Shown here in pieces: positions 37,727 through 42,608 of a stretch of DNA of 64,000 bases. How positions within the stretch are numbered: position 1 is the first letter of the stretch; every line of letters begins with the position of its first letter. Source of the DNA: Bacteroidota bacterium. Lineage in GTDB: Bacteria > Bacteroidota > Bacteroidia > Bacteroidales > Tenuifilaceae. The notes beneath the pieces were generated by a model that had not been told where the DNA came from, ran no database searches, and saw only the letters and a list, made by a program, of their open reading frames with translations. The DNA lies in the NCBI GenBank assembly GCA_029560875.1, contig JAKQKB010000173.1:124001-188000 (forward strand), in the 5' to 3' direction. A program made the translations under genes and the position numbers.

Positions 37727-39364
37727 TTAGTTTTTTCGTTCAATCTCCTTCAGGTTATCCAACTTCTTAGTTTCGAGGAAGTACTGAATATCGCCCAAGT
37801 ACTCCTTCACACGCTTATTACCAAACTCGTAAACCTTATTGGCCAATCCATTTAGGAAATCGCGGTCGTGCGATACCACTATTAATGTACCATCGTAATT
37901 CTGTAGCGCCTCTTTCAGAATATCCTTGGTGCGTAAATCTAGGTGGTTGGTTGGCTCGTCCAGAATAAGCAGGTTAACTGGCGCAAGCAAAAGCTTTATC
38001 ATTGCTAAACGTGTACGCTCTCCACCAGAAAGAACTTTCACCTTTTTAGTCCAGCTATCGCCACCAAACATAAATGCGCCCAGCAAATCCTTTATTTTAG
38101 TACGAATATCGCCTACTGCAACATCATCAATGGTTTGGTATACGGTTAGCTCCTCATCCAGAAGCGATGCCTCGTTCTGGGCAAAATAGCCCACCATTAC
38201 GTTGTGACCTAAACTTAGATTACCATCGTGGTCAATCTGCTTCATTATTGCCTTAACAAGGGTCGATTTACCCTCGCCATTCTTACCCACAAAGGCAATC
38301 TTATCGCCACGTTCAAGGGTGAAAGTGGCGTTCTGGAATACCAAATGGTCCCCGTACGATTTTCCAACCCTATCAACAATTACAGGGTGATTTCCAGAGC
38401 GTGGCGATGGCGGGAAACGCAACTTTAGTGCAGATGTATCCTCCTCGTCAATCTCTACCATATCAAGTTTATCCAGCATCTTAACCCTGCTCTTAACCTG
38501 ATTGGTTTTGGAGTAAGTTCCCTTAAAGCGCTCAATGAACTCCTCGGTTTCGGCAATCATCTTTTGTTGCTCCTCCCAAGCCTTCTGCTGCTGAATGCGA
38601 CGCTCCTTGCGCAACTCAAGGTACTTTGAGTAGTTTACTTTATAATCGTATATCCGTCCAAGCGTAACCTCAATGGTACGGTTGGTGATATTATCAACAA
38701 AAGCACGGTCGTGCGATATCACAATTACTGCCTTGGCGCTATTAACCAAGAAATCCTCCAACCACTGAATCGACTCAATATCCAAGTGGTTTGTGGGCTC
38801 ATCGAGCAGAATTAAATCGGGTTTCTTGAGCAGAATTTTAGCCAACTCAATACGCATACGCCAACCTCCGCTGAAATCGCTTGTGGGGCGATTAAAATCC
38901 TCGCGTACAAAGCCTAAACCTATCAGAATTTTCTCAACCTCGGCCTGGTAGTTCACCTCCTCAATGGAGTAAAACTTTTCGCTTAATGTGGTAACATCCT
39001 CAATCAGCTTATAGTACTCTGGTGACTCGTAGTCGGTTCTGCTGGCCAGTTCGGCATTCATAGCCTCAATTTTGGCCTCCATTTCAAATATGTGGGCAAA
39101 CGCCTGCGATGTCTCCTCAAAAACCGACATCTTGTTATCGGTCATCAAATGCTGAGGCAGATAGGCAATAACAGCATCGTTGGGAGCTGAAACCACTCCG
39201 CGGGATGGCGTCCTCTCCCCTGCCAAAATCTTGAGCAGGGTCGATTTTCCTGCACCGTTCTTACCCATCAGCGCAATTCTATCCTTCTCGTTAATTGCAA
39301 ACGAGATATCCTTAAAAAGCGTAGTACCGCCAAACTCTACTGCTAATCCGTCAACTGAAATCAT
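37727..39364 (-). CDS. ABC-F family ATPase
   Basis: 545 residues, two ATP-binding cassettes on one chain and no membrane segment. Walker A: GKNGAGKST and GKNGEGKST; signature loops SGGWRMRIELA and SGGERTRLAMI; Walker B LLDEPTNHLD and LILDEPTNHLD. The linker between the cassettes (about 240-320) is highly charged and helical, the P-site tRNA interaction motif region. ABC-F proteins act on the ribosome in translation (EttA, Uup, YbiT) or antibiotic protection; the exact subgroup cannot be assigned here. Confidence 0.94.
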   Translation of the reverse strand: MISVDGLAVEFGGTTLFKDISFAINEKDRIALMGKNGAGKSTLLKILAGERTPSRGVVSAPNDAVIAYLPQHLMTDNKMSVFEETSQAFAHIFEMEAKIEAMNAELASRTDYESPEYYKLIEDVTTLSEKFYSIEEVNYQAEVEKILIGLGFVREDFNRPTSDFSGGWRMRIELAKILLKKPDLILLDEPTNHLDIESIQWLEDFLVNSAKAVIVISHDRAFVDNITNRTIEVTLGRIYDYKVNYSKYLELRKERRIQQQKAWEEQQKMIAETEEFIERFKGTYSKTNQVKSRVKMLDKLDMVEIDEEDTSALKLRFPPSPRSGNHPVIVDRVGKSYGDHLVFQNATFTLERGDKIAFVGKNGEGKSTLVKAIMKQIDHDGNLSLGHNVMVGYFAQNEASLLDEELTVYQTIDDVAVGDIRTKIKDLLGAFMFGGDSWTKKVKVLSGGERTRLAMIKLLLAPVNLLILDEPTNHLDLRTKDILKEALQNYDGTLIVVSHDRDFLNGLANKVYEFGNKRVKEYLGDIQYFLETKKLDNLKEIERKN

Positions 39365-39482
39365 CTACCTCTAAAAATTTAAGCCGCAAAGATAGGGATT
39401 TCGTGAGAAGTTAAACGTGAATCGTTAAAAGAAAGAGTTAAAGTTTGTTGAAGGCGTAAATGAAGGCTAATGAATAAATTAT

Positions 39483-39513
39483 AGAAGCACGCGATATAAT
39501 CGCGCGCTAGCAA
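39483..39513. repeat. Palindromic repeat, copy A
   Basis: 31-base unit whose core is cgcgat, ata, atcgcg with an A-C mismatch (39489/39505) and outer pairs beyond it. 30 of 31 bases equal the unit at 41121-41151, in the same orientation. It lies 26 bases beyond the stop of the AT-rich gene 39540-40922. Belongs to the palindrome family also found near 60-63 kb. Confidence 0.85.
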
Positions 39514-39539
39514 AAGACTCACAATTTTGATAAAGAATT

Positions 39540-40922
39540 TCAACAAGATTCGCTGTCTTGTATTATTTTGCACAACCATTGATAACCGGGGTTTTGTTTT
39601 TCCAAATCCAAAAAGAATTCTTCATCTGTGAGTTTTTCAAAAGCATTATTAAGAACGGAAGAGTTTATTTCATTAGTATAATGAAAATTAAACCTTTCAT
39701 TATACATATTTTTGCAACCAATAATTCTTTCTAAATAATCCTTAACTTTATCTAAAAACCACGCCTTTGGAACTTTATCAATATTCTTCTGAATCTTAAT
39801 AAGTACAGAATGATTTAACATAGTAAAATGCTCTGCAATAGGACAGGATTCATAACTATCATTATTCTTTAAAAATTGAAACCAATTTCCAATGTTAAAA
39901 AGCATTCTATTTACAGCACATTGATACAAATTTGTTGGATTATTACTTTCATTATAATAATTAATCTCTGGAGCAACATTTAAAAGTTTGTCAGTCCAAG
40001 TTGAATAAAGGAAAAAACCACCAACTGTTGCTTTTGTAATGATTACTTGATGCCAATAGCAATCTACTAATTGAATGAAATAGAAAGGAATAAGAAACTT
40101 AGGCGCAACTTGTTTGAAGGAATTATCAGATGGTTTAAGAAGAAAAATTGACTTGTCTTTATCTATAAACTGAATAGAATTGTAGTATTCATCAGCAACA
40201 ATATTTATCAAAGGAATAAAGATATTCTTATTTCTATTAGTTTCAATATCTTTAGGACTTGACAAAAATATATTTAAAATTGGTGTTTGTTCTGACAATA
40301 CAATACCATTATTCTGCAAATTAAGTTCTTCAGTAATTTGAGAATTGGGAATGTTAGACAATTGTGAAAAAAGCAATGATCTCAAAACATCCTCATTCAT
40401 ATCATAAAAACGTGAGGAATGCTTAAAAACTAAATCTTTGAAATAATTTGAAGCAATAAGCCACCATTTTTCGTTTGTCAGTAACATACTATATGGTAAC
40501 CAAACTTTTTCATCATTCGATTCAAAAAAATAAGTTTCATACTTCCTGAATAATGATGAAAATTTTGAAGGCTCATAATTATCTAAGTAATCAATATACT
40601 TTTTAATTAACTTATTAGAAGGCTTGGTATTTGTAATTTTTTTCCACTTTATAAAAGAACAAACAAAAAAAGCAATTATCAAAATAATTGACCAAACACC
40701 AGGTTGCAACCCTCTACTACACCAAAAAAAATTTAACCAATTAGGATGCGGGTTAGAATGAAAAAATGCAGAAAGTCCACTAAGAATTAGAAATATAAGC
40801 GGTAAAACAATATACCTCTTTTTTAACTTTAAGCGAATTATTTCCCATTCATCAAATTTAAATATTGCAATAATCAAAGCTAGTAATATTGAAATTACTG
40901 TTATCCAATCTGAAAAACTCAT
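39540..40922 (-). CDS. AT-rich orphan membrane protein, unknown function
   Basis: 460 residues. Three hydrophobic helices in the first 110 residues (about 7-21, 37-53 and 75-92), then a soluble part of about 350 residues, probably cytoplasmic, with no motif I can assign. It is rich in Asn, Lys, Ile, Phe and Trp. Base composition differs sharply from its neighbours: the 60 bases from 40561 hold 11 G/C, against 33 in the 60 bases from 41641 in mnmE. It sits between two near-identical palindromes (39483 and 41121), consistent with a recently acquired accessory gene. Function is unknown; a defence or stress role is only one possibility. Confidence 0.75.
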   Translation of the reverse strand: MSFSDWITVISILLALIIAIFKFDEWEIIRLKLKKRYIVLPLIFLILSGLSAFFHSNPHPNWLNFFWCSRGLQPGVWSIILIIAFFVCSFIKWKKITNTKPSNKLIKKYIDYLDNYEPSKFSSLFRKYETYFFESNDEKVWLPYSMLLTNEKWWLIASNYFKDLVFKHSSRFYDMNEDVLRSLLFSQLSNIPNSQITEELNLQNNGIVLSEQTPILNIFLSSPKDIETNRNKNIFIPLINIVADEYYNSIQFIDKDKSIFLLKPSDNSFKQVAPKFLIPFYFIQLVDCYWHQVIITKATVGGFFLYSTWTDKLLNVAPEINYYNESNNPTNLYQCAVNRMLFNIGNWFQFLKNNDSYESCPIAEHFTMLNHSVLIKIQKNIDKVPKAWFLDKVKDYLERIIGCKNMYNERFNFHYTNEINSSVLNNAFEKLTDEEFFLDLEKQNPGYQWLCKIIQDSESC

Positions 40923-41092
40923 TGTATAGTGTATTTAGTGATTACTTATTATTCGACAATAAACAAGAATACTTTAATCATAAGTTACAAAAAAATTTTC
41001 ATAAAACCTACATTTTCAACATTATAGTTATCAACAACCCTTAGTATTAAAAACCATAGTTTATTCTATAAAAGTTAAACAAAACCTTCGCT

Positions 41093-41151
41093 GCCGTACG
41101 ACTCCTGTCGTGTGGCCGAAAGAAGCACGCGATAAAATCGCGCGCTAGCAA
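41093..41151. repeat. Two-hairpin palindromic element, copy B
   Basis: First hairpin: 10-bp stem with two G-T pairs, arms 41093-41102 and 41107-41116 around loop TCCT. Second: the 31-base unit at 41121-41151, 30/31 identical to copy A, with the same A-C mismatch. The element lies in the 285-base gap between the orphan gene and mnmE, and ends 30 bases before the mnmE promoter element. Confidence 0.85.
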
Positions 41152-41181
41152 CCTAGTTAAACAACTATCAACTAAAGACAC

Positions 41182-41189
41182 TATCTTTG
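41182..41189 (+). promoter_or_regulatory. Promoter -7 element of mnmE
   Basis: TATCTTTG matches TAnnTTTG exactly, 18 bases before the ATG at 41208. At the expected -33 distance there is only GTTAA. It argues against the upstream TTG reading that would start within this element. Confidence 0.55.
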
Positions 41190-41207
41190 CAGAAAATTCA
41201 GATTTTG

Positions 41208-42608
41208 ATGCTCGACGATTCCACCATAGTTGCCATTGCCACACCCGCAGGAATGGGCGCCATTGCGGTTATCCGCCTTAGCGGTAAGGATTCTATTGCC
41301 ATTGCCGATAGTGTTTTTCAATCATCGAACAAAGGCAAGAAACTTGCCACTCAAAAGCCTTACACCATTCATTACGGCTCAGTTGTGGATAACGTTAGGG
41401 TGTTGGACGATGTGCTGGTGAGTATATTCAAAGCACCCCACTCCTACACTGGCGAGGATAGCATTGAGATATCGTGCCACGGCTCGGTGGTTATTCAGCA
41501 GCAGATTCTGGAGTTGCTCATAAAAAGCGGTGCACGGCTTGCCAAACCTGGCGAATTTACACTGCGCGCTTTCCTAAACGGAAAAATTGACCTATCGCAG
41601 GCCGAAGCCATTGCCGACCTTATTGCATCGTCGAGCGAGGCTGCACGCCGAGTTGCTCTGCAGCAGATGCGTGGAGGTTTCTCCGATAAACTTAAAGCCC
41701 TTCGCGAACAACTGGTAAAATTCACTGCGCTCATTGAACTGGAACTTGATTTCAGCGACGAGGATGTTGAATTTGCAGATAGAAGCCAACTGGAACAGCT
41801 AATCAATGGTATTCTTGCAGAAATAAACCGATTAATCGACTCGTTCAGTCACGGTAATGCCATAAAATCGGGTATTCCAGTTACCATTGCGGGTAAACCC
41901 AACGTGGGTAAATCCACACTACTAAACCGTTTGCTCAACGAGGAAAAGGCCATTGTATCGGAAATTGCAGGTACAACCCGCGATTCCATTGAGGATACAA
42001 TCCATTTAGGAGGTATAAACTTTAGGTTTATTGATACCGCTGGACTACGCCACACCTCCGATACCATTGAGTCCATTGGAATTGAGCGTGCGCTCAACAA
42101 AATAGAACAGGCCAAAGTGGTGCTTTACCTGCTAGATGCCCAGGAAACTATGACCGATTGCCTTGAGGCAATATCGGAGTTTAGGCCCAAACTAACCAAC
42201 GAGCAAAGCCTGATTGTGCTTGTTAATAAGGAGGATAAATCCAACCCACAACATACCGACGATTTGGTAACCGCCATTGGCAAGCAGTTCAACTGCAAAA
42301 CCTTATCGATATCGGCAAAAGCAGGGCATAATATCGACAAGCTAACGCATCTGCTAATAGAGATTGGGCTAAGCGGCCAGCCCGAAAACGAGGATGTGGT
42401 AGTTACCAACGCCCGCCACTACGATTCGCTTATAAACACCCAGAAAAACCTAAACCAGGCACTTGCTGGGCTAAAATCCAATATCTCGGGCGATTTATTG
42501 GCAATTGATATCCGCCAGTCAATATACCATTTAGGTGAGATAACTGGCGAGATAACTAACAATGAGGTGCTTGGGTATATTTTTTCGAAGTTCTGCATCG
42601 GCAAGTAA
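41208..42608 (+). CDS. mnmE: tRNA uridine-5-carboxymethylaminomethyl GTPase MnmE
   Basis: 466 residues from the ATG at 41208. N-terminal formyl-tetrahydrofolate-binding domain (STIVAIATPAGMGAIAVIRLSG), helical domain, then an inserted G domain (GKPNVGKSTLLNRL, DTAGLRHT, NKED) and the C-terminal FCIGK with the catalytic Cys. Together with MnmG it modifies the wobble uridine (mnm5/cmnm5) of several tRNAs. mnmG is not in the window. Its stop overlaps the next start by one base, so the pair is translationally coupled. Confidence 0.97.
   Translation: MLDDSTIVAIATPAGMGAIAVIRLSGKDSIAIADSVFQSSNKGKKLATQKPYTIHYGSVVDNVRVLDDVLVSIFKAPHSYTGEDSIEISCHGSVVIQQQILELLIKSGARLAKPGEFTLRAFLNGKIDLSQAEAIADLIASSSEAARRVALQQMRGGFSDKLKALREQLVKFTALIELELDFSDEDVEFADRSQLEQLINGILAEINRLIDSFSHGNAIKSGIPVTIAGKPNVGKSTLLNRLLNEEKAIVSEIAGTTRDSIEDTIHLGGINFRFIDTAGLRHTSDTIESIGIERALNKIEQAKVVLYLLDAQETMTDCLEAISEFRPKLTNEQSLIVLVNKEDKSNPQHTDDLVTAIGKQFNCKTLSISAKAGHNIDKLTHLLIEIGLSGQPENEDVVVTNARHYDSLINTQKNLNQALAGLKSNISGDLLAIDIRQSIYHLGEITGEITNNEVLGYIFSKFCIGK

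Follow-up and report, generated by a model that had tools for sequence, protein, structure and literature searches.

Organization of the locus

The window, a stretch of 64,000 nucleotides from a draft genome of 4.0 Mb (G000; 237 contigs, 91% complete), contains an AT-rich orphan gene between the genes for an ABC-F ATPase and the tRNA modification GTPase MnmE (Table 1). The two flanking genes are transcribed divergently, and the insert therefore sits in their shared promoter region; for mnmE, a longer frame with TTG from 41187 also exists. The near-identical repeats that the initial annotation had placed around the orphan, copies A and B, agree at 30 of 31 positions in the same orientation, with a single mismatch (T at 39497, A at 41135) and a spacing of 1638 bp from start to start. 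The runner-up repeat family in the surrounding 4-kb region extends over 24 nt at 79%. Exact identity between the two copies extends for at most 16 bp, compared with a mean of 12 and a maximum of 16 in 300 shuffles, and since shuffled DNA also reaches this length, the case against chance is made by the agreement over all 31 positions together with the family copies found elsewhere. The copy A hairpin ends 26 bp 3' of the orphan stop codon and bears a terminator-like pattern on the minus strand, the number of such patterns being no greater than expected by chance. A search of Rfam with 39300–41300 returned nothing. The palindrome R next to copy B (GCTGCCGTACGACTCCTGTCGTGTGGC) is present also in congener G001 and absent from congener G002 at the ABC-F/mnmE site; similar short matches to it occur in several other genomes of the taxonomic family.

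Table 1. Features of the ABC-F/mnmE intergenic region and its flanks, in window coordinates.
Feature	Position	Strand	Remarks
ABC-F ATPase gene, left flank	37727–39364	-	divergent from mnmE
Left intergenic unit U1	39394–39482		runs straight into copy A
Copy A, REP-like hairpin	39483–39513	-	REP-sense strand -: TTGCTAGCGCGCGATTATATCGCGTGCTTCT
AT-rich orphan gene, 460 aa	39540–40922	-	three predicted membrane helices, then ~360-residue soluble part
Second palindromic element R	41086–41120		abuts copy B
Copy B, REP-like hairpin, mnmE side	41121–41151	-	anchor copy common to G000, G001 and G002
mnmE, tRNA modification GTPase gene, right flank	41208–42608	+	likely start ATG at 41208

The orphan gene and its product

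The GC content of the orphan gene is 27.3% (21.9% at third codon positions), compared with 45.1% for the ABC-F gene and 46.4% for mnmE, in keeping with the compositional contrast to the flanks noted initially, and an open frame of this kind is very unlikely to arise by chance (ln P about -40). Hydrophobic stretches at residues 1–29, 35–57, and 70–97 precede the large soluble part, and no confident match to the protein is found in Pfam, NCBIfam, PADLOC, PHROGs, or PDB sequences, so the description of three helices and a soluble domain of no recognized family holds. Against the known defence families of PADLOC there is no match up to E = 0.1. A Pfam match to DUF5976 (E 0.012, under the cut-off) and PDB matches to FANCD2 (E 0.07) were treated as chance. 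AlphaFold prediction from the single sequence yields a mean pLDDT of 40.6 and no usable model.

None of the 98 other genomes in the relatives search, congeners included, has the gene, and no homologue is found in plasmids, phages, IMG/VR, or GTDB r220 contigs. Among 395 genomes of the class, a single partial homologue is detected, in genome G368 (34% identity over residues 1–135), where it is cut off by the contig end; 42 genomes of that genome's order hold no further homologue. Because this match covers residues 1–135, the membrane-anchored N terminus is also present in another family of this class. The orphan product probably serves as an accessory protein anchored in the membrane. It may possibly be of toxin-antitoxin or defence type, a suggestion drawn only from the genes in equivalent segments, which include a HepT/MntA pair, AbiEii-like and caspase-like genes, and a DUF2971 gene with a PADLOC candidate match.

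The ABC-F/mnmE junction in congeners

The genus sample (g1) comprises three genomes, the drafts G000 and G001 and the complete G002, and the three carry three different cargos at this site: the orphan in G000, a DUF2971 gene in G001 (26.9 bits, cut-off 22), and a pair of HepT-like and MntA-like genes in G002. On the mnmE side, G001 agrees with G000 in flank, R palindrome, and repeat, after which come the DUF2971 gene and the contig end. The order in G002 is ABC-F, a diverged unit with a hairpin, the HepT-like/MntA-like pair, U1, one repeat, and mnmE; its intergenic region holds cargo between ABC-F and U1 and hence is not empty overall. The U1-repeat-mnmE stretch of G002 aligns to 39394–39513 and to 41121–42608 of the window, the two alignments overlapping by exactly the 31-bp repeat, with 119 of 120 positions identical over 39394–39513. 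In G002, then, U1 is joined to the mnmE flank through a single repeat with nothing between, which is the junction, with one repeat and no gene, that the initial annotation had named beforehand as the sign of insertion to be sought in relatives. The high identity of U1 might have pointed to recent transfer; the adjoining ABC-F and mnmE ends are similarly conserved (94–100%), however, and this reading was rejected. The ABC-F/mnmE adjacency is not found in other genera, and the other mnmE loci of the family have no ABC-F gene upstream.

In close relatives the site is thus unoccupied or differently occupied, and acquisition at a hotspot is well supported by these sequence comparisons. Of the earlier proposal of an acquired cargo or defence-type gene, acquisition is upheld by the absence of the gene from 98 relatives, the other genes at the site, and the one-repeat allele; assignment to a defence type finds no PADLOC match. 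Since G000 and G002 share ABC-F, U1, one hairpin, and mnmE, gain in G000 would be simpler than loss in G002, a direction judged among congeners rather than by an outgroup. An old, vertically inherited gene that became AT-rich by drift between chance repeats would have the weak exact-match statistics alone in its favour and can be dismissed, being contradicted by the absence from 98 relatives, the other genes at the site, and the single-repeat allele.

A hairpin family linked to RAYT transposases

In its own genome the repeat has just one further close copy, on contig C226. The pattern CACGNNNTNNAANNNCGCGCYA, in which the stem is left free, detects the hairpin family more widely: of 27 genomes in the taxonomic family, 14 contain it, and strict copies number 22 in G002 and 4 in G000. 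The hairpin consists of an 8-bp stem and a 5-nt loop, its opposite-strand form being GCTRG-CGCG-NNN-TTNNA-N'N'N'-CGTG, and it folds better on that strand than on the other. Among 28 distinct variants, standard pairs fill 95.1% of the pair cells, one G-T pair never changes, and both sides vary at three stem positions; covariation scores 0.392, compared with 0.138 in shuffles, and none of 500 shuffles reaches the observed value. The family therefore has the character of a short extragenic palindrome that folds as a hairpin in several copies, as do REPs, whereas the foot is CT[AG]G in nearly all copies instead of the canonical 5' GT[AG]G.

At 1.49 Mb in G002, two tandem Y1-transposase genes are bordered by this hairpin family, in the form of GGACT-stem variants, so that the link of the family to a RAYT gene is seen in the congener rather than in G000. 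Scored with the NCBIfam model for REP-associated tyrosine transposases (NF047646), the G002 RAYT reaches 94 bits, above the cut-off of 80, and it carries the WQ and YIHNNP motifs, both of which are among the motifs of TnpA-Y1 subclass 2.6 (PMC6006769). This subclass is found mostly in Bacteroidetes and has atypical flanking hairpins, its REPs being reported to lack the GT[AG]G consensus (PMC6006769). In vitro, TnpA-REP proteins cut and recombine REPs in single-stranded form, with cleavage at CT dinucleotides, and for one of them a change to CTAG lowered cleavage without abolishing it (PMC8266576). Given a foot of CTRG instead of GTRG in a family that is nevertheless linked to a RAYT, the elements are best named atypical REP-like elements, and the repeats of the window match the 'atypical' REPs reported for subclass 2.6. 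No clear cognate RAYT is found in the G000 draft, in which the closest candidate scores 53.9 bits, below the cut-off, and has no hairpin nearby.

The second RAYT copy of G002 (L131) ends early, and a hairpin of another stem type lies inside its 3' part (L131, 2967–2988). Genome G008 has a 34-aa RAYT-like remnant with a CGTTACAAACG-type hairpin ~50 bp away.

Compared with REP/RAYT group 5 (TnpA-Y1 subclass 2.6; PMC6006769), the present family is alike in its extragenic hairpin, foot tetranucleotide, covarying stem, and RAYT-bordering copies, as is the G002 RAYT in its motifs and NF047646 match. It differs in the sequence of the foot, in its low copy number, and in forming same-orientation pairs around accessory genes, REPs usually occurring in inverted pairs.

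Hairpin pairs around other genes

In G002 there are 10 adjacent hairpin pairs within 3 kb, compared with 0.35 expected, and none of 20,000 random placements reaches 10; when the RAYT and 2.83-Mb clusters are removed, 4 pairs remain, compared with 0.11 expected. The same-orientation pairs of G002 enclose an AbiEii-like nucleotidyltransferase with a DUF6922 gene, a caspase-like peptidase, and orphan secreted proteins, and direct-repeat identity around the hairpins extends from about 26 bp to over 130 bp. At one such locus (L137, 2146–4602), three hairpins lie in ~130-bp near-identical repeats around the AbiEii-like/DUF6922 pair, and caspase-like peptidases are located just outside one hairpin pair (L138, 926–1810) and between or beside another (L139, 3897–5171). 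In G000, close and looser hairpin copies on contig C226 surround a 244-aa AT-rich orphan (L031, 5136–6266) adjoining an endonuclease III-type gene; this locus has a partial match in G001, where the gene joined to the left flank and hairpin is a different one (L133). For the other G002 pairs, neither G000 nor G001 yielded convincing matches to the flanks or a second clean empty site.

In genus g1, the cargo gene points along the REP-sense strand in every one of 8 cases (two-sided 0.008 if the cases are independent), and the downstream hairpin, where visible, lies 18 to 243 bp past the cargo stop codon. This polarity rule was noticed post hoc and is opposite in the GGACT-type pairs of genome G007, and it is a lead only. 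Elsewhere in G007 (L145, on contig C4, 2194–6437), two consecutive units of ~2.1 kb lie between three REP-like hairpins of GGATT type, each unit consisting of an Rhs-core-like fragment and a short AT-rich orphan.

Interpretation of the proposed insertion

The reading that best accommodates these observations, with a probability of roughly 0.7, is that the promoter region between the divergent ABC-F and mnmE genes is a variable hotspot and that the orphan is an accessory gene inserted there with REPs as its borders. Most likely, the ancestral junction held a single REP-like hairpin, to which the G000 lineage would have added the orphan, the R palindrome, and a second hairpin copy, giving rise to the direct repeat. 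Segments would probably enter, leave, and replace each other by recombination between direct REP copies, and a RAYT may assist by cutting and rejoining single-stranded hairpins. As at other integration hotspots for defence or accessory genes, unrelated accessory genes occupy one intergenic region of close relatives; here, the borders are REP-like hairpins, and no integrase, tRNA site, or long att site is seen at the junction.

The alternative that survives best, although it is distinctly less probable, is that the REPs are passive, that segments are deleted or inserted by host homologous recombination or replication slippage, and that the hotspot reflects nothing more than a tolerated, non-essential site. 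Direct repeats are known recombination substrates. The breakpoints lie within or at the repeat, and the G002 segments are bracketed by repeats in the range given above, as homology would predict. Passive recombination leaves unexplained, however, how unrelated genes arrive with a hairpin already in place and why hairpins pair so strongly around segments of 1–3 kb. This alternative overlaps the REP-bounded insertion described above and differs from it solely in assigning the REPs no role in acquisition.

A rather doubtful alternative is that the locus is a mobile cassette driven by a RAYT, in which hairpin, gene, and hairpin are excised and inserted as single-stranded DNA in the manner of IS200/IS605 elements. 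Like those elements, the segment has hairpins on the same strand at both ends; G002 has a RAYT with this hairpin family; and the 31-bp identity ends in ...GCTTCT on the REP-sense strand, in line with cleavage by TnpA-REPs at CT (PMC8266576). The consistent cargo orientation in genus g1 also speaks for such a cassette, whereas the opposite polarity of pairs of one hairpin type in G007 speaks against it. Moreover, excision of the IS200/IS605 type would take both hairpins, and the single-repeat allele of G002 retains one; the CT boundary is absent from other hairpin pairs; the guide tetranucleotide is CTRG, not GTRG; G000 yielded no cognate RAYT; and in contrast to IS200/IS605 elements, only the orphan and no Y1 transposase lies between the hairpins.

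Integron-like gene cassettes with the hairpins as attC-like recombination sites would match the order of gene then hairpin, the constant polarity in genus g1, and the better folding of one strand, and are nonetheless very improbable, given that no attC core (RYYYAAC...GTTRRRY) is visible by eye in the window copies, that the hairpin has 8 bp with a 5-nt loop, and that its copies are scattered and do not form one array.

REPs are usually regarded as short selfish or structural repeats. Here, under the reading of a REP-bounded insertion, close relatives differ in their accessory genes, several of them toxin-antitoxin or defence candidates, and REP-like hairpins lie precisely at the edges of those genes. 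What is new about the locus is the nature of its borders, REP-like hairpins that are associated with a RAYT and form borders at other loci of the genus too; in the open-licence literature, no description was found of REP pairs bracketing swapped accessory genes. If the same holds in more genomes, hairpin pairs would provide a simple signature for uncharacterized accessory or defence genes in Bacteroidota that lack an integrase or transposase, and the question would arise whether RAYTs move genes, beyond REPs alone. Speculatively, and with a low probability, such hairpins might be the borders of a general cassette system in this Bacteroidales lineage, in which single accessory genes or toxin-antitoxin pairs, each followed by a hairpin of constant polarity, are both inserted at REP sites and swapped between them by or with a RAYT.

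On the other side of mnmE, just 3' of the gene, contig C496 of G001 (L006, 2–1010) carries a tyrosine integrase (Phage_int_SAM_5) and an excisionase-type HTH gene, and this 3' side may be a separate integration site in the genus.
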